The notes under the pieces were generated by a model. It made no database searches. It was given only the letters and a program-made list of their open reading frames with translations, and was not told the origin of the DNA. Position numbers and translations under genes: made by a program. Of a stretch of DNA of 64,000 bases, positions 1,503 through 8,892 are shown piece by piece. Location of the stretch: the NCBI GenBank assembly GCA_002839355.1, contig PGXW01000002.1, positions 62,001 to 126,000 on the forward strand, given 5' to 3'. Position 1 is the stretch's first letter, and the number at the start of each line of letters is the position of its first letter. This DNA is from Spirochaetae bacterium HGW-Spirochaetae-2. GTDB lineage: Bacteria; Spirochaetota; Spirochaetia; Sphaerochaetales; Sphaerochaetaceae.

Positions 1503-1613
1503 ATATTTGTATATAGAAACATCAATTAATACCAATACTAAGCAATATCAAACAGATAATTGGCATATAGTTTAAATTTTGTATTCAAAACCGATAATTG
1601 GTGCCAGGTACGT
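1487..1613. repeat. 10-bp direct repeat flanking a 107-bp AT-rich spacer
   Basis: CCAGGTACGT occurs at 1487-1496, at the end of the polyferredoxin gene, and again at 1604-1613, at the acr3 stop codon. The sequence between is AT-rich and contains two copies of GATAATTGG. It could be the footprint of a small insertion or chance. No terminal inverted repeats were found. Confidence 0.35.
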
Positions 1614-2662
1614 TACGAAAACCACCTCTTCGTGTTGTTGGCAATCTTTACCAACGTCAGCATGACGGGAACCTCGACCAGTACCCCGACCACCGTTGCG
1701 ATTGTTGCTCCCGAGCTGAGCCCGAACACCGAGATGGCGACGGCGACAGCAAGTTCGAAAAAGTTTGAAGCACCGATCATACCGGCTGGAGCTGCGACAT
1801 CATGGGGCAGCTTCCATGCCCTCGCCCACAGGTATGCCACGAAGAAGATGAAGAACGTCTGGATAATCAAAGGAATGGCGATCAACACGATATTCAGCGG
1901 ATTATCCACGATCGTCTGACCCTGGAACGAGAAGATGATGACAAGGGTGAGCAACAGCCCGGTGATGGTGACATTCCCGAACTTTGGAATGAATGTATTC
2001 TCAAAGTAATCCAACCCGCGGTTTTTCGTGATAATGACCCGGGAAAGCCATCCGGCACCGAGCGGAATCACCACGAACAGGATCACCGAAAGGAAGAGCG
2101 TCATCCAAGGAATAGCTATGCCGCTTATCCCCAACAACAGTCCTACGATCGGCACGAACGCCGCAAGGATGATCAGGTCGTTGGTCGCGACCTGTACCAA
2201 CGTATAGGCCGGATTGCCTTTGGTCAGATGGCTCCATACGAAGACCATGGCTGTACAGGGCGCAGCACCCAAAAGAACGGCACCCGCCAGGTATTGTCGC
2301 GCCAGGTCCCGTGGAATAATCGATCGGTAGACCACATAGAAGAAGAATATGGCGATACCGTACATGGTGAAGGGCTTGATCAGCCAGTTGGTGACCCAAG
2401 TGACAACCAATCCACGGGGATTTTGGCCGACCTTCCTGATACTATGGAAATCGACCTTGAGCATCATGGGATAGATCATCAACCAAATGAGTACTGCTAC
2501 CGGTATCGAGACGTTGGCATATTCGAATTGTGAGAGAAAGTTGGGAATCCCCGGAAGAAATACGCCGACCAACACACCAACGACCATGCACAGCAAGACC
2601 CACACGGTCAAATATTTCTCGAAGAAACCGATTCCAGAAGATGACTTCCCAGTACTTCCCAT
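1613..2662 (-). CDS. acr3: ACR3-family arsenite efflux permease
   Basis: The 349-residue, roughly ten-helix inner-membrane protein exports arsenite (As(III)) using the membrane gradient. The ACR3/bile-acid symporter fold is recognisable. The conserved arsenite-binding cysteine sits at C136 in LLGAAPCTAMVFVWSHL, and the conserved C-terminal glutamate in GASNFFELAVAVAIS. The start at 2662 has a strong ribosome site (GGGAGG five bases before ATG); a longer upstream reading (IVVWEVY) overlaps that site and is rejected. It lies 59 bp downstream of arsR on the same strand and is almost certainly derepressed by arsenite through it. Confidence 0.93.
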   Translation of the reverse strand: MGSTGKSSSGIGFFEKYLTVWVLLCMVVGVLVGVFLPGIPNFLSQFEYANVSIPVAVLIWLMIYPMMLKVDFHSIRKVGQNPRGLVVTWVTNWLIKPFTMYGIAIFFFYVVYRSIIPRDLARQYLAGAVLLGAAPCTAMVFVWSHLTKGNPAYTLVQVATNDLIILAAFVPIVGLLLGISGIAIPWMTLFLSVILFVVIPLGAGWLSRVIITKNRGLDYFENTFIPKFGNVTITGLLLTLVIIFSFQGQTIVDNPLNIVLIAIPLIIQTFFIFFVAYLWARAWKLPHDVAAPAGMIGASNFFELAVAVAISVFGLSSGATIATVVGVLVEVPVMLTLVKIANNTKRWFS

Positions 2663-2721
2663 ATATACCTCCCACACCACAATCAAGCGGTAAATTGTTT
2701 CATATGGTTTTCAAACAGATT

Positions 2722-3057
2722 TCAGCAACGTCTGTTTCCACATTTTCCTGAATCCTTCACCAGTATATCATCCCGATTGGTCGAGATAAGGTTCAGATAG
2801 TCCAAAAGGTCGGAAAGTTCCCTTGTATCCAGAGTATAGTATGTCCATTTTCCATCCCTTTCCGATGACACGAGACCACTTTCAGTGAGCATTTTCATAT
2901 GATAGCTGAGCGTCGGTTGGGTTATCTTGAACGAGTCCAATATATCGCATGCACATAATGGTTCCGCCGACAGCAGGTTGATGATGCCGAGCCGCGTCTC
3001 ATCCGAGAGCGCCTTGAGCTTGAGTAGTTGAGATCCTGGAGTTTCTTGTTTTACCAT
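2722..3057 (-). CDS. arsR: ArsR-family arsenite-responsive repressor
   Basis: The protein has 111 residues and a winged-helix fold. The metalloid-sensing motif ELCVCDL appears as PLCACDILDSF, and the recognition helix as ITQPTLSYHMKML. A second Cys pair lies in the C-terminal CGNRRC tail and may add thiolate ligands. An in-frame GTG lies directly before the ATG; ATG at 3057 is preferred because AGGAG is then six bases upstream. It is the promoter-proximal gene of arsR-acr3 and should repress its own operon. Confidence 0.92.
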   Translation of the reverse strand: MVKQETPGSQLLKLKALSDETRLGIINLLSAEPLCACDILDSFKITQPTLSYHMKMLTESGLVSSERDGKWTYYTLDTRELSDLLDYLNLISTNRDDILVKDSGKCGNRRC

Positions 3058-3080
3058 CACCTGCTCCTCTTATATATCGA

Positions 3081-3148: not shown

Positions 3149-3163
3149 GTTGACGTCGTCAAC
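3149..3163. promoter_or_regulatory. 15-bp dyad, candidate MarR operator
   Basis: GTTGACG-T-CGTCAAC is a perfect 7-1-7 inverted repeat lying 71 bp before the marR start and in the divergent gap with arsR. MarR proteins usually bind such compact palindromes near their own promoter. That assignment is inference. Confidence 0.45.
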
Positions 3164-3233
3164 CAATAGTGTTAAAGTTGCGCATGATGCTCGCGCATAC
3201 TCTGCTTGGAAAAGGGAAAGGAGGCAGAACACC

Positions 3234-3698
3234 ATGAAGTCTGGAATGAATGATGTTGATCGCAAAGTGTTGAGTCGAAGCTTGTTGGACATCGCATGGA
3301 GTTTCGGTCCGAAAGGTCTGGACGGTTCGTGTTGCCAAGATCTTGGCATGGCCGAATTTCTTGCTTTGGACGGCATATCCCGTATCGCTGATTGCCCGGT
3401 ACAACAGGTCGGACATTCCCTCGGATTCACCAAGAGCGGAGCGACACGGATCGTGAGCCGCCTTGTCATGAAAGGATATGTCTCCAAGAGGTCTTCAGGA
3501 CATGATGCACGGGTATGTTGTCTTGAGGTGACCGAGCATGGGCGGGAAATGCTCTCACAAGCGTATGCACAATACGGGAACCTCTTGAACCGAGTGTTCT
3601 CTGGGTTGGATGAGACAGAGAAGGGAGAGTTACAAGAATCCTTGATCAGATTCAGCACCTTGCTCATGCGAGAAAACTATCAGGAGGAAAACCGGTGA
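3234..3698 (+). CDS. Cys-rich MarR-family regulator
   Basis: The 154-residue winged-helix protein has a recognition region reading LGFTKSGATRIVSRLVMKGY and a wing around SGHDARVCCLEVTEHG, both diagnostic of MarR. Unusually it carries five cysteines, arranged as two adjacent pairs (C33/C34 and C95/C96) plus C54, which suggests a thiol or metalloid sensor. The start at 3234 has AAAGGAGG seven bases upstream. The stop overlaps the GTG start of the following permease by four bases, so the two are translationally coupled. It probably controls that permease and the small Cys-rich peptide after it. The ligand is unknown. Confidence 0.85.
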   Translation: MKSGMNDVDRKVLSRSLLDIAWSFGPKGLDGSCCQDLGMAEFLALDGISRIADCPVQQVGHSLGFTKSGATRIVSRLVMKGYVSKRSSGHDARVCCLEVTEHGREMLSQAYAQYGNLLNRVFSGLDETEKGELQESLIRFSTLLMRENYQEENR

Positions 3699-4591
3699 AC
3701 ACCTTATGGGCTACCTTTCGCTATTTTGCCATCATCATGCTCGAGCTTACCGTTTTGTTCATCGCCATCAGTGCGCTCGTTGCACTGATGCTGACTTACA
3801 TCTCAAGGGAGCGTCTCTCTTCTTGGCTGACCCGCCGGGGGTTGGGTGGGAACATCCTCGGGGCACTTGTTGGTTCGCTCACCCCGTTCTGTGCGTGTTC
3901 CACTATTCCGATGACCTTGGGGATGCTGCAGGCGGGGGCACCCTTCGGTTCGGTGATGTCGTTCGTCATCGCTTCCCCGCTGCTCAATCCCATCATCATC
4001 GTGATGCTGGTCACTCTCATGGGTTGGAATGTGGCGGCGGTGTATTTCATCGTCACATTCGTTGGAGCGGTCCTCTTCGGATCTGCGTTGCAGCGGATGG
4101 GCTTCAATAGTCAAGTGAAGTCCGTGCGTATCAAGCCAAAGGCCTCATCTGAAGATGACCGTTACGTTACACCGACGTTCAAGGAAAAACTTGCAGAGTC
4201 TTTGCAATCGGCGTGGAGCGATTACCGAGTGGTCTTCCACTATCTGCTCATCGGAGTGGCACTCGGATCGGCGATCTACGGCTACATCCCCGAAGAATTC
4301 ATCGTCGGGATCGCAGGTGCGGACAAACTGCTGTCGGTACCGATCGCGGCGACGATCGGCGTGCCGCTATACATCCGTGCCGAGACAGCCATTCCCATAG
4401 GATTGGGCCTGATGTCGAAGGGGATGGGACTGGGAACGGTGGTTGCCCTCATCATCGGGGGATCAGGAATGGCGATTCCCGAGATGTCGATGCTGGCGGG
4501 AATCTTCAAGAGAAAGCTAGTCGGCGCGCTCGTGGCCGGCATCTGGCTCACCGCCGTAGTCGGCGGATATCTATTCAACATTCTGGCATAA
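3695..4591 (+). CDS. PF03773 (DUF318/ArsP-type) permease, short form
   Basis: The 298-residue polytopic protein belongs to the permease family that includes ArsP, which exports trivalent organoarsenicals. The N-terminal half carries the conserved Cys pair C66/C68 in LTPFCACSTIPMTLGML, followed by the family stretch FGSVMSFVIASPLLNPI. A second, similar half begins near residue 170. It starts with GTG at 3695, with AGGAGG seven bases upstream and a GTGA overlap with marR. The neighbours (Cys-rich MarR, Cys-rich peptide, arsenic genes) support a role in exporting a metalloid or thiol-reactive metal species. Methylated arsenic is plausible because arsM lies elsewhere in the window. Confidence 0.85.
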   Translation: MNTLWATFRYFAIIMLELTVLFIAISALVALMLTYISRERLSSWLTRRGLGGNILGALVGSLTPFCACSTIPMTLGMLQAGAPFGSVMSFVIASPLLNPIIIVMLVTLMGWNVAAVYFIVTFVGAVLFGSALQRMGFNSQVKSVRIKPKASSEDDRYVTPTFKEKLAESLQSAWSDYRVVFHYLLIGVALGSAIYGYIPEEFIVGIAGADKLLSVPIAATIGVPLYIRAETAIPIGLGLMSKGMGLGTVVALIIGGSGMAIPEMSMLAGIFKRKLVGALVAGIWLTAVVGGYLFNILA

Positions 4592-4605
4592 GAAGGAAAA
4601 AGAAT

Positions 4606-4776
4606 ATGGAAGAGAAGAAATCGAGACTCTTGAAATTGTTCGGTGCAAAGAAAACAGGCTGCTGCTCCGTTGAAATCGAGGAAATCCCGGAGGAAGAGAA
4701 GCAGGAGGACAGCTGTTGTCCTTGCTGCGGTCCCGTACCGAGTGAGGTAAAGGATTTGGAAAAAGCAAGCGAATAG
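4606..4776 (+). CDS. 56-aa Cys-rich peptide of the permease operon
   Basis: It starts 14 bp after the permease stop, with AAGAAGGAAAAAGAAT before the ATG. The product begins MEEKKSRLLKLFGAKK, then has C19-C20, an acidic middle (EIEEIPEEEKQED) and C37-C38-x-C40-C41, and ends with a charged tail. Six cysteines in 56 residues, arranged as vicinal pairs, point to soft-metal or metalloid binding, for example as a chaperone or buffer that feeds the permease. I do not recognise a named family. That it is real is supported by spacing, ribosome site and strongly patterned cysteines; the function is inference. Confidence 0.7.
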   Translation: MEEKKSRLLKLFGAKKTGCCSVEIEEIPEEEKQEDSCCPCCGPVPSEVKDLEKASE

Positions 4777-4894
4777 AGGCTATCTTGCCGATTGAAGTAA
4801 AAATGAAGAAAGCCCTGATTTCCACGTGTTGGGGGTATGGTAGATATTCGTTCCATCAACGGTAGAGGGGAGGCTCAACCGAATATTGTCGAGC

Positions 4895-5587
4895 TTAGAA
4901 GCCCAAGTACAGCAGGTAGAACCCCATAATCAACAACACGGCTCCCATCCCATATTTCAGTACTGTACTGAACTTGCCATACTTCCCGCTCGCGCTCAGG
5001 TGCTTCACGAATCCGACAGAGGTTCCAGCCACCACCACCAGGACGCTATGCCCCAGAGAATACATGAGCAGCAGGAATACTCCCCATGCGATATTTCCGC
5101 TACCAGCCACCAAAGTCAACAGGGCAACCAGCACAGGGGTGGCACAGGGAGACGAGAAGAGCCCTCCGAGCATGCCGGTGACCACCGCCCCCACATAGCC
5201 GCGGCGCTTGTTCGCGTTTGTCAGATAGGTTGAAGGGATGAAATTGTACACTTCCCAGGCCTGCAAGGCCATGAGCACCATGATGGTTCCCAGGACGATG
5301 AACCACCATGAGCCGGCACCTTGCATCAAGCGGCCAAGCAAGGAGGCTGCAGTGCCAAGGATTGTGAAGGTCACCGCCATACCCACTGCGAATGCAATGG
5401 ACAACCGGAAGGAACGTCCCGTTTCGCGTTGGCCTGTTCCACCTACGTAGCCGATGACCAGAGGAACGCTACTGAGTGCACAGGGGGTGACCGAGGTGAG
5501 CAATCCGGCGACCAAAGCTGCCAGAGGTGCGATCCAGAGGTTCTGTCCTATCATGTAGGATATGTCGTTAAGCAACGAATCAATCAT
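4895..5587 (-). CDS. ccdA: CcdA/DsbD-type transmembrane thiol electron carrier
   Basis: The 230-residue, six-helix membrane protein moves reducing equivalents from cytoplasmic thioredoxin across the inner membrane. The two redox cysteines are in place: C36 in TSVTPCALSSVP and C148 in GLFSSPCATPVLVAL. Its ATG overlaps the stop of the upstream thioredoxin gene by eight bases, so the pair is translationally coupled. It is the last gene of arsR2-arsC-trx-ccdA. The likely job is to keep the membrane-anchored thioredoxin reduced outside the membrane; a link to arsenate reduction is contextual. Confidence 0.88.
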   Translation of the reverse strand: MIDSLLNDISYMIGQNLWIAPLAALVAGLLTSVTPCALSSVPLVIGYVGGTGQRETGRSFRLSIAFAVGMAVTFTILGTAASLLGRLMQGAGSWWFIVLGTIMVLMALQAWEVYNFIPSTYLTNANKRRGYVGAVVTGMLGGLFSSPCATPVLVALLTLVAGSGNIAWGVFLLLMYSLGHSVLVVVAGTSVGFVKHLSASGKYGKFSTVLKYGMGAVLLIMGFYLLYLGF

Positions 5588-6137
5588 TGTGCAACCCCAT
5601 CTCTCCCAGTGCCTCCATGATCATCGCCTCGGTCATCCCACCTTCATGGGCAGTGAACAAGTGTTCCTCAGTATCCTTGTGGATATACATGAGCAGTTGG
5701 GAATCCGAGGGGTCGGACGGTACATAGGGCTTCCCCTCCATGTCGAAGAACATTTGCGTTGGGATGACCCGGATGGGAAAACCGTTGGCCAGCTCGGGAT
5801 ATTTCCATACATCGATGAACCTGATGATCGCTTTACCTTGGAGCCGTGCATTCAGGTCCTTGAGTATCGGGGCCATCTCCTTGCACGGAGCACAGGAATC
5901 GGCCCCGAAGTCCAGGAGAATGGGCAAGCCATAGCTTTTCAAGCGATCCAGATCCAGCGGTTCGGTGACATCCAGGGCGAAATCGGGATTCGTCGGAGCC
6001 TTCGCCACAGATCCTTGTCCATCAAGCTCCGCTATATTCTCGGCACCATGATTTTTCACCAACCACAGACCGATGATAACAATGACGATCACAAACGATA
6101 CCAGTATCCTGACGAGATTCTTCTTGGAGATGTGCAT
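5580..6137 (-). CDS. Membrane-anchored thioredoxin-fold protein
   Basis: The protein has 185 residues. An uncleaved signal anchor (residues about 9-27, LVRILVSFVIVIVIIGLWL) places the thioredoxin domain outside the inner membrane. The redox motif is C82-A-P-C85 in DFGADSCAPCKEM, and the cis-proline region reads IRVIPTQMFFD. AAAGGAAA lies upstream of the ATG. With the adjacent ccdA it forms a two-part extracytoplasmic thiol-reducing system. Its position behind arsC is common in anaerobe arsenic operons, but cytoplasmic ArsC would need a cytoplasmic reductant, so its substrate is unclear. Confidence 0.88.
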   Translation of the reverse strand: MHISKKNLVRILVSFVIVIVIIGLWLVKNHGAENIAELDGQGSVAKAPTNPDFALDVTEPLDLDRLKSYGLPILLDFGADSCAPCKEMAPILKDLNARLQGKAIIRFIDVWKYPELANGFPIRVIPTQMFFDMEGKPYVPSDPSDSQLLMYIHKDTEEHLFTAHEGGMTEAMIMEALGEMGLHND

Positions 6138-7097: not shown

Positions 7098-7337
7098 ATG
7101 GTAATACAGATACTCGGGACAGGCTGTCCCAAATGTAAGACACTCGAAGCGAATGCACGTCAGGCAATCGAGGCCGGTGGCATCGATGCCACGATTGAGA
7201 AGATTACCGAGATCGACCAGATCATGGACATGGGTGTGATGATGACCCCGGCCTTGGCAATCGACGGAATTGTGAAAAGTGCCGGCAAAGTATTGAACAA
7301 GGACCAGATCCTTGCTTTTATAAAGGAAGGGGAATGA
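7098..7337 (+). CDS. Small thioredoxin-fold redox disulfide protein (CPKC)
   Basis: The 79-residue protein of the thioredoxin_3 / redox-active disulfide protein 2 family has the motif C10-P-K-C13 in ILGTGCPKCKTLEAN and a cis-Pro in VMMTPALAIDG. AAGGAG lies seven bases before the ATG. It is cytosolic. Such proteins often sit next to PF03773 permeases in arsenic loci and probably reduce or shuttle a thiol-bound substrate for the permease two genes downstream. The stop overlaps the next ATG (ATGA). Confidence 0.9.
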   Translation: MVIQILGTGCPKCKTLEANARQAIEAGGIDATIEKITEIDQIMDMGVMMTPALAIDGIVKSAGKVLNKDQILAFIKEGE

Positions 7338-7705
7338 TGGGTTGCGCATGTGCATGTGGCGACGATTGCAAGGTGAACCTCATCTATGCATGCTCGGGAG
7401 CCGCGAATACCGGCCTGCTCGCCGACCAAGTGGCCCGAACATTGGCTTCTGACGGCAAAGGTTCCATGACTTGTCTTGCCGCAGTGGGAGCCGACCTTTC
7501 GGGATTCCTCGCATCGGCCAGAAGCGCCGACAAGAATGTGGTTATCGACGGGTGCAAGGTCGCTTGCGGTGCAAGGATCTTCACGGAGAAGGGATTGCCC
7601 TTCGAACACTACATCACCACCGATTTCGGCGTGCTCAAGGGACAGACCCCCATAACCGGGGAAGTGATAGAGACTGTGGCGCTACAGATCGGCAGGATGA
7701 TATAG
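7334..7705 (+). CDS. DGC-domain putative zinc/metalloid-binding protein
   Basis: The 123-residue protein begins MMGCACACGDDCK, a cluster of four cysteines (C4, C6, C8, C12), with C20 soon after. Later come SMTCLAAVGA and the name-giving VIDGCKVACGARI. This is the layout of the DGC domain family (PF08859), which is thought to bind metal. The ATG overlaps the previous stop by four bases; the second in-frame ATG (7337) is an alternative. It sits between a redox protein and a PF03773 permease, suggesting a soluble metalloid-handling partner. Confidence 0.82.
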   Translation: MMGCACACGDDCKVNLIYACSGAANTGLLADQVARTLASDGKGSMTCLAAVGADLSGFLASARSADKNVVIDGCKVACGARIFTEKGLPFEHYITTDFGVLKGQTPITGEVIETVALQIGRMI

Positions 7706-7707
7706 CC

Positions 7708-8892
7708 ATGGCGAACAAAGAGCTCACGCCCAACAAGAAACTGCTGGTTATCGCAGGCATCTTCCTCACCGTATTCTTTATACCGTTCACCAATGCACGG
7801 GTAGCCGGCGCAATCCAGGAAGCCTTCCTGATGCTTGCGGACTATGCTCACGAGCATGTATTGCTTTGCGTGGTTCCCGCGTTGTTCATCGCCGGGGCTA
7901 TTGTGGTGTTCCTCAACCAACAGGCGGTCATGAAGTATCTCGGACCGAAGGCGAACAAGTTCGTCGCCTATTCGGTGGCTTCGGTATCGGGAGCGATCCT
8001 CGCCGTCTGTTCCTGCACGGTGTTGCCGCTGTTCAAAGGCATCTACAAGAAGGGAGCCGGACTTGGTCCCGCCGTATCGTTTCTGTACTCGGGCCCGGCG
8101 ATCAATATCCTGGCCATCGTGCTCTCCTACAAGGTGTTCGGGTGGAAGCTCGGCCTCACCCGCATGATCGTGTCGATCGTGTTCGCTTTTCTCATCGGCC
8201 TGATCATGCAGGCGCTCTTCCGCAAGGAGGATGAGAAGCGGCTTGCCGACGAACGCCTGTTCCAGAACTTGGGTGGTCCCGACGCCCGTTCGCTCGGGCA
8301 GATGGTACTGTTCATGCTCTCCATGATCGGCATCCTGGTGTTCCTCAACTGGGCTCCCTCCAGCGGGGCAAGTTCGGGTTGGGACTTTATCCACCGCTCG
8401 AAATACTGGATAACCGGAGCATTCGGCCTGTTGCTCGCCTACGCGTTGGTGCGGTGGTTCACCAAGGACGAACTGGTCGAATGGGGAGGAGCGACACGCG
8501 ATTTCGCGCTGCAAATCCTTCCCTTGCTATTCGGTGGTGTTCTGGTGGCCGGTTTCCTGCTGGGAAGACCCGGACATGAGGCGCTCATTCCCTCGGCATG
8601 GGTAGCCTCGCTGGTTGGAGGGAACTCGCTGTTCGCCAACTTCTTCGCTGCGATTAGCGGTGCATTCATGTATTTCGCTACCCTTACCGAGATTCCGATA
8701 GTCCAGGGGCTGCTGGGGGCGGGCATGGGACAAGGACCCGCACTCGCACTGCTGCTCGCGGGACCGAGCCTCTCGTTGCCGTCGATGCTGGTGATCGGTG
8801 GGGAGTTGGGATTCAAGAAGACCGCGGCGTATGTTGTGTTGGTGGTCGTCTTCTCCACAAGTGCGGGAGTAGTGTACGGGTTGGTGGCTTGA
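7708..8892 (+). CDS. PF03773 (DUF318/ArsP-type) permease, long form
   Basis: The 394-residue polytopic membrane protein has two permease halves joined by a charged loop (QALFRKEDEKRLADERLFQ). The key motif is C101-S-C103 in GAILAVCSCTVLPLFKG, followed by LGPAVSFLYSGPAINI; the second half repeats the pattern around NSLFANFFAAISGAFMYF. It starts three bases after the DGC gene, so the start is coupled. The first in-frame ORF extension upstream overlaps the DGC gene and is not used. Export of organoarsenical or other soft-metal species under ArsR2 control is the likely role. Confidence 0.85.
   Translation: MANKELTPNKKLLVIAGIFLTVFFIPFTNARVAGAIQEAFLMLADYAHEHVLLCVVPALFIAGAIVVFLNQQAVMKYLGPKANKFVAYSVASVSGAILAVCSCTVLPLFKGIYKKGAGLGPAVSFLYSGPAINILAIVLSYKVFGWKLGLTRMIVSIVFAFLIGLIMQALFRKEDEKRLADERLFQNLGGPDARSLGQMVLFMLSMIGILVFLNWAPSSGASSGWDFIHRSKYWITGAFGLLLAYALVRWFTKDELVEWGGATRDFALQILPLLFGGVLVAGFLLGRPGHEALIPSAWVASLVGGNSLFANFFAAISGAFMYFATLTEIPIVQGLLGAGMGQGPALALLLAGPSLSLPSMLVIGGELGFKKTAAYVVLVVVFSTSAGVVYGLVA

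Follow-up and report, generated by a model that had tools for sequence, protein, structure and literature searches.

The locus described here raises the question of whether a gene for a 56-residue cysteine-rich peptide, found behind the genes of a MarR-family regulator and an ArsP-type permease, belongs with them to a single efflux unit and, if so, which substrate such a unit might handle. The window, i.e., the whole stretch of 64,000 nucleotides that was analysed, comes from a genome of 3.62 Mb; among public genomes, Sphaerochaeta halotolerans, with an 88% identical permease, is its closest relative at this locus. The three genes form a rightward operon between two leftward gene pairs, namely an ArsR-Acr3 pair (1613-3060; Acr3 assigned by TIGR00832) and a CcdA/thioredoxin pair (4895-6137). 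The regulator gene (3234..3698, forward strand; 154 aa) begins with ATG at 3234 and its stop codon at 3696-3698 overlaps the GTG start of the permease gene (3695..4591, forward strand; 298 aa) in the sequence GTGA, and the peptide gene (4606..4776, forward strand), which starts with ATG, follows 14 nucleotides past the permease. An earlier note on this DNA had pointed to two vicinal Cys pairs in the regulator, a CxC in the permease and six cysteines in vicinal pairs in the peptide, and all of these could be located, as C33-C34 and C95-C96 along with a single C54, as C66-A-C68, and as CC...CCPCC, respectively. A gene for a NapH-like membrane ferredoxin protein (741-1502) lies upstream of acr3.

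The permease matches PF03773 with 188.9 bits against a gathering cut-off of 32.3, and its C66-A67-C68 is invariant in 45 of 45 homologues, C66 being preceded by TPF (TPFCAC). Of the two ArsP clusters described by Yang et al. (2015, PMC4435449), cluster 1 has LAV before C(S/T)C together with HVxxCLVPAFFIAG, and cluster 2 has tPF. Judged by its PF03773 match, the TPF ahead of its CxC and a recurrent ars neighbourhood, the short permease appears to be ArsP cluster-2-like; unlike cluster 2 as described in PMC4435449, however, it carries CAC (45/45) instead of C(S/T)C, and the unit has a MarR with four cysteines (Cys4 MarR) rather than ArsR and a dedicated Cys-pair peptide. Relatives of the short permease on plasmids carry CSC. 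The longer permease of the window (7708-8889; LAVCSC, HVLLCVVPALFIAG) belongs to cluster 1, and the window thus has one permease of each cluster; the longer one is part of a second, different ArsP unit (7098-8889) comprising an ArsE-type thioredoxin and a DGC-domain protein that starts with CACACGDDC. A search of solved structures initiated with the model of the short permease (pLDDT 75) did not find any fold relative.

Is the peptide a genuine companion of this permease? A permease scan of 84,980 species genomes yielded 78 loci, of which 77 were considered for the peptide tally and 74 had enough sequence to be assessed, many of them from metagenome bins and with related sequences that are not independent. 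The peptide is encoded in 56 of these 74 short-permease loci, across many phyla: in 50 it lies directly downstream of the permease, including two fusion proteins (L067, L080); in four it is found elsewhere in the cluster, as thioredoxin fusions (L085, L119, L126) or just upstream of the permease (L087); and in two it was found by eye, being cut by masked bases (L082) or split by a transposase gene that interrupts it after position 4792 (L064, other part L148). No peptide is seen beside any of 26 distant PF03773 permeases of the same phylum (28-39% identical, with at least 1.3 kb of downstream sequence). In a permease tree, built by a quick method and with several long branches, the peptide-bearing members group in one part, with losses here and there, and the distant members that lack the peptide lie outside it. 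The search beside PF03773 genes that the earlier note had proposed as a check thus shows that homologous loci keep both the peptide beside the permease and its Cys pairs, and the unit could not be dismissed for want of conservation. Part of the loci later counted had also gone into the peptide profile; the motif was first seen in a plain listing of open reading frames and confirmed in independent genome samples. When 26 genomes were searched whole, the peptide was present in 24, nearly always as a single copy at the permease. Among 11 new peptide loci from 113 genomes of one class, eight adjoin the permease, two lie within about 1.2 kb of it and one lacks a permease in the short piece seen; one further locus, from the order of Bacteroides, also adjoins the permease. 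Genome-wide matches are therefore essentially confined to permease loci. A search of the nearest genomes of the family gave no significant match outside the peptide's own genome, which is consistent with horizontal spread.

The peptide is typically 45-70 residues long: a basic/hydrophobic start is followed by a CC pair, then by acidic residues (xExEE) and in most cases by a further cluster of cysteines. Across 37 aligned peptides the first pair never varies at its second Cys, while the first Cys of that pair and two Glu reach at least 90% conservation. The CCxCC of the window peptide was considered as a defining motif and rejected, as its nearest relative (L056) has SSPCC and CCxCC is private to the window; similarly, an amphipathic N-terminal membrane anchor was rejected because the helical moment is no better than that of shuffled sequences, and we therefore describe the N-terminus only as basic/hydrophobic. 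Comparison with S. halotolerans (dN 0.21, dS 1.11, the latter near saturation) shows the peptide to be under purifying selection. None of the 37 peptides has a Pfam match or a meaningful NCBIfam match, and a match of one of them to the YM-216391 RiPP is taken as chance; the peptide thus represents a conserved family that neither Pfam nor NCBIfam models. The 18 of 74 loci without a recognisable peptide, three of which have a Cys4 MarR (L060, L068, L071), suggest that it is helpful rather than essential. In three Lentisphaerota-like loci where the peptide is missing (L106, L117, L118), the adjacent thioredoxin is extended by a Cys-rich tail that closes with a hydrophobic segment. At another locus (L169, 480-749), permease and peptide are separated by a 90-residue open reading frame containing ENACCGS; it has no Pfam match and resembles ArsD or thioredoxin by eye.

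The same arrangement is found on plasmids, where permeases at 40-46% identity each precede a peptide of this kind, for example MGIKDALKKIKPQEQSCCSVEIEE...CC on Staphylococcus aureus pSALNT16. Others follow the permease on plasmids of S. saprophyticus, S. pettenkoferi, Mammaliicoccus lentus and Enterococcus hirae, and on Arthrobacter pA2H1; the peptide of Cupriavidus pRK1-4 has three CC-x-IE units. A tblastn search with one peptide against plasmids gave no match, though plasmid peptide genes exist, because the peptide is too short and divergent for the method. As regulator, the plasmid units encode an ArsR protein or, in the case of Cupriavidus, a PadR that has a vicinal pair itself, and in three plasmids arsDA directly adjoin the permease-peptide pair. 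Across these loci, permease and peptide form the stable core, whose regulator varies, the MarR being one of several. A paper on the Arthrobacter plasmid lists two passenger genes, only ArsR and a "permease of unknown specificity", and does not count the peptide (PMC6305408).

What the peptide does is best approached through its fusions. At L067 its partner is an ArsD domain covering only PF06953 positions 23-104; since the domain starts at position 23, the peptide stands in for the N-terminal region of ArsD, where the metal-binding cysteines of ArsD lie. It is also fused to an ArsE/MTH895-type thioredoxin (L080, L126) and, by similarity to the small thioredoxin of the window, to an ArsE-type thioredoxin (L085, L119). 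The strongest evidence that the peptide may handle an arsenic-like substrate comes from these fusions. Like the ArsD metallochaperone, it is small, has a vicinal Cys pair and lies beside an arsenical exporter, and the two occur once in a natural fusion; unlike ArsD, it shows no sequence or domain similarity, as PF06953 is absent from all 37 peptides and found only in the L067 fusion, and its partner would be the permease rather than ArsA. It is possible, though in our view doubtful, that the peptide is instead a structural or regulatory subunit of the permease, namely a detached central loop, or a simple metal buffer, and not a substrate-delivering carrier. An ArsP-type permease on the E. coli plasmid pMR0516mcr (L136, 5000-6100) has several CC pairs within its central loop and no peptide in the stretch read, and this insert seems to be the peptide in cis, as a subunit would predict; the repeated CC-x-EE units of the Cupriavidus and Marinifilum peptides would suit a buffer. 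Its fusion partners, an ArsD metallochaperone domain and ArsE thioredoxins, suggest transfer chemistry, however.

As for the substrate, Acr3 or ArsC is encoded in 33 of 78 homologous loci and an arsenite methyltransferase gene (arsM) lies directly downstream of the permease in two (L075, L079). The characterised ArsP of C. jejuni exports trivalent organoarsenicals and not arsenite (PMC6205960). By analogy and on account of this neighbourhood, trivalent arsenicals are favoured as the probable substrate, the organic ones slightly ahead. Copper, zinc and cadmium are retained as rivals because mutants of SO_0444, another PF03773 member, are Cu/Zn sensitive (PMC3219624), and a role in handling Cu, Zn, Cd or Hg as soft metal ions, which has been suggested for relatives of SO_0444 or SaoE, would also accord with the weak similarity of the permease to the NCBIfam equivalog models of SaoE (105.5 bits) and SO_0444 (92 bits). 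SO_0444 and SaoE resemble the window permease as PF03773 permeases implicated in metal(loid) export; nevertheless, the window permease falls far below both cut-offs (325 and 300, respectively), and ars genes lie near many homologues, with arsDA beside the unit on plasmids and arsM directly downstream in the two loci above, which makes a soft-metal unit unlikely. The earlier note had also placed the unit apart from the ArsR systems beside it; this holds here for its probable regulation by a MarR with an operator of its own, but not for the neighbourhood as a whole, given the ars genes at the homologous loci and the presence of ArsR with the same permease-peptide pair in Bacteroidota, staphylococci and Arthrobacter.

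The regulator matches PF12802 (35.1 bits) and PF01047 (26.7 bits), both over cut-off, and its AlphaFold2 model (pLDDT 87) has a MarR fold, with Foldseek matches to MarR structures. C33, C34, C95 and C96 are invariant in all 32 MarRs compared (31 homologues from the loci and the window protein), while C54 is retained in 19; in the model, C33/C34 lie in the α1-α2 loop and C95/C96 in the wing strand. A search for the Cys4 MarR in 147 genomes gave seven matches, all with both Cys pairs: six adjoin the permease and the seventh shares its locus with a permease end and the peptide, so that the permease is found in 7/7 and the peptide in 6/7 of these loci. At one locus (L063, 4640-5800) a transposase gene interrupts the MarR gene. 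Among MarR proteins, AdcR and ZitR are zinc sensors and OhrR and MexR are redox sensors. The window protein shares with them the MarR fold with ligand-sensing residues, and AdcR has a Cys in the α1-α2 loop, but it differs in having two invariant vicinal Cys pairs, one of them in the wing strand, and an apparent operator of its own, GTTGAC-N3-GTCAAC. A literature search did not find any arsenite-sensing MarR with vicinal cysteines.

The perfect dyad noted earlier upstream of the operon is present at 3149..3163 (GTTGACG-T-CGTCAAC, 7+1+7), where it is the sole match with at most one mismatch in its own 3.62-Mb genome, and it recurs as a conserved element in homologous loci. Of 30 MarR genes, 18 have TTGAC-N3-GTCAA upstream, where dinucleotide shuffles give 0.01, and 22 do so if one C/T or G/A change is allowed, where shuffles give 0.09; when spacers of 0 to 8 were tried, almost only the 3-nt spacer recurred. 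In 790 kb of loci the element occurs 26 times, 18 just upstream of MarR, eight just upstream of the permease and none elsewhere. The eight permease-side copies (L057, L059, L060, L062, L068, L075, L076, L129) sit 27-35 bases before the permease start, inside the operon, and most of these loci also carry a MarR-side copy. A promoter scan placed TTGACG-N17-TAAAGT with a TG before the -10 at 3150..3178 (forward strand), overlapping the dyad, though the scan alone is not above chance; across 22 loci, a TATAAT-like hexamer 17 nt past the left arm is the best among all offsets tested. The conserved dyad is thus likely the operator of the MarR, a palindrome at its own promoter, and a repressor bound there would cover the -35 box, as the left arm contains the hexamer TTGACG. 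Redox-sensing MarR proteins are well known and the peptide-thioredoxin fusions could suit a redox relay, but an OhrR/MexR-like disulphide switch for thiol stress is the least probable reading, given two invariant vicinal pairs in a MarR found mostly in anaerobes, the coupling to an ArsP permease, the ArsD fusion of the peptide and the swap of the regulator for ArsR at other loci.

With a probability of about 0.6, we hypothesize that the locus is a MarR-repressed, thiol-sensing efflux unit for trivalent arsenicals or antimonials, in which the peptide serves as carrier or auxiliary subunit. The sensor, exporter and carrier unit envisaged in the earlier note agrees with this in its gene coupling, in having a probable operator of its own and in the conservation of the peptide and its Cys pairs beside the permease elsewhere. 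The ligand, its binding, the direction of transport and the hand-over we infer as follows. The MarR autorepressor, bound to the dyad over the -35 box, would keep the three-gene operon off. Its release would come when its two Cys pairs bind a thiophilic species, most probably a trivalent arsenical (As(III) in methyl or inorganic form) or perhaps Sb(III). The peptide would capture the same species with its paired cysteines and present it, whether as a carrier or as a detached arm that binds metal in the cytosol, to the permease, which would export it through the CxC site. Against this explanation stand the near-invariance of only one Cys pair of the peptide, the link of SO_0444, a PF03773 member with mutant data, to Cu/Zn (PMC3219624), and the loci without a recognisable peptide, three with a Cys4 MarR among them.

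Arsenical export by ArsP permeases is regarded as the affair of a single protein. At roughly even odds, two unrecognised components come to light here at once, viz., a family of carrier peptides dedicated to ArsP cluster-2 permeases, which has spread through many phyla and onto mobile plasmids, and a kind of MarR sensor for metalloids that combines two vicinal Cys pairs with the conserved operator GTTGAC-N3-GTCAAC. Given so sharply defined an operator, such a sensor could become a biosensor part, and the peptide would serve annotators as a marker of the short-permease clade. Since permease and peptide recur together across many bacterial phyla and also on plasmids of Staphylococcus, the peptide looks like a helper protein, so far undescribed, for the export of toxic arsenic-like compounds; a partner of this kind, conserved yet unmodelled and found even in staphylococci, would alter the view of how the substrate reaches the exporter.
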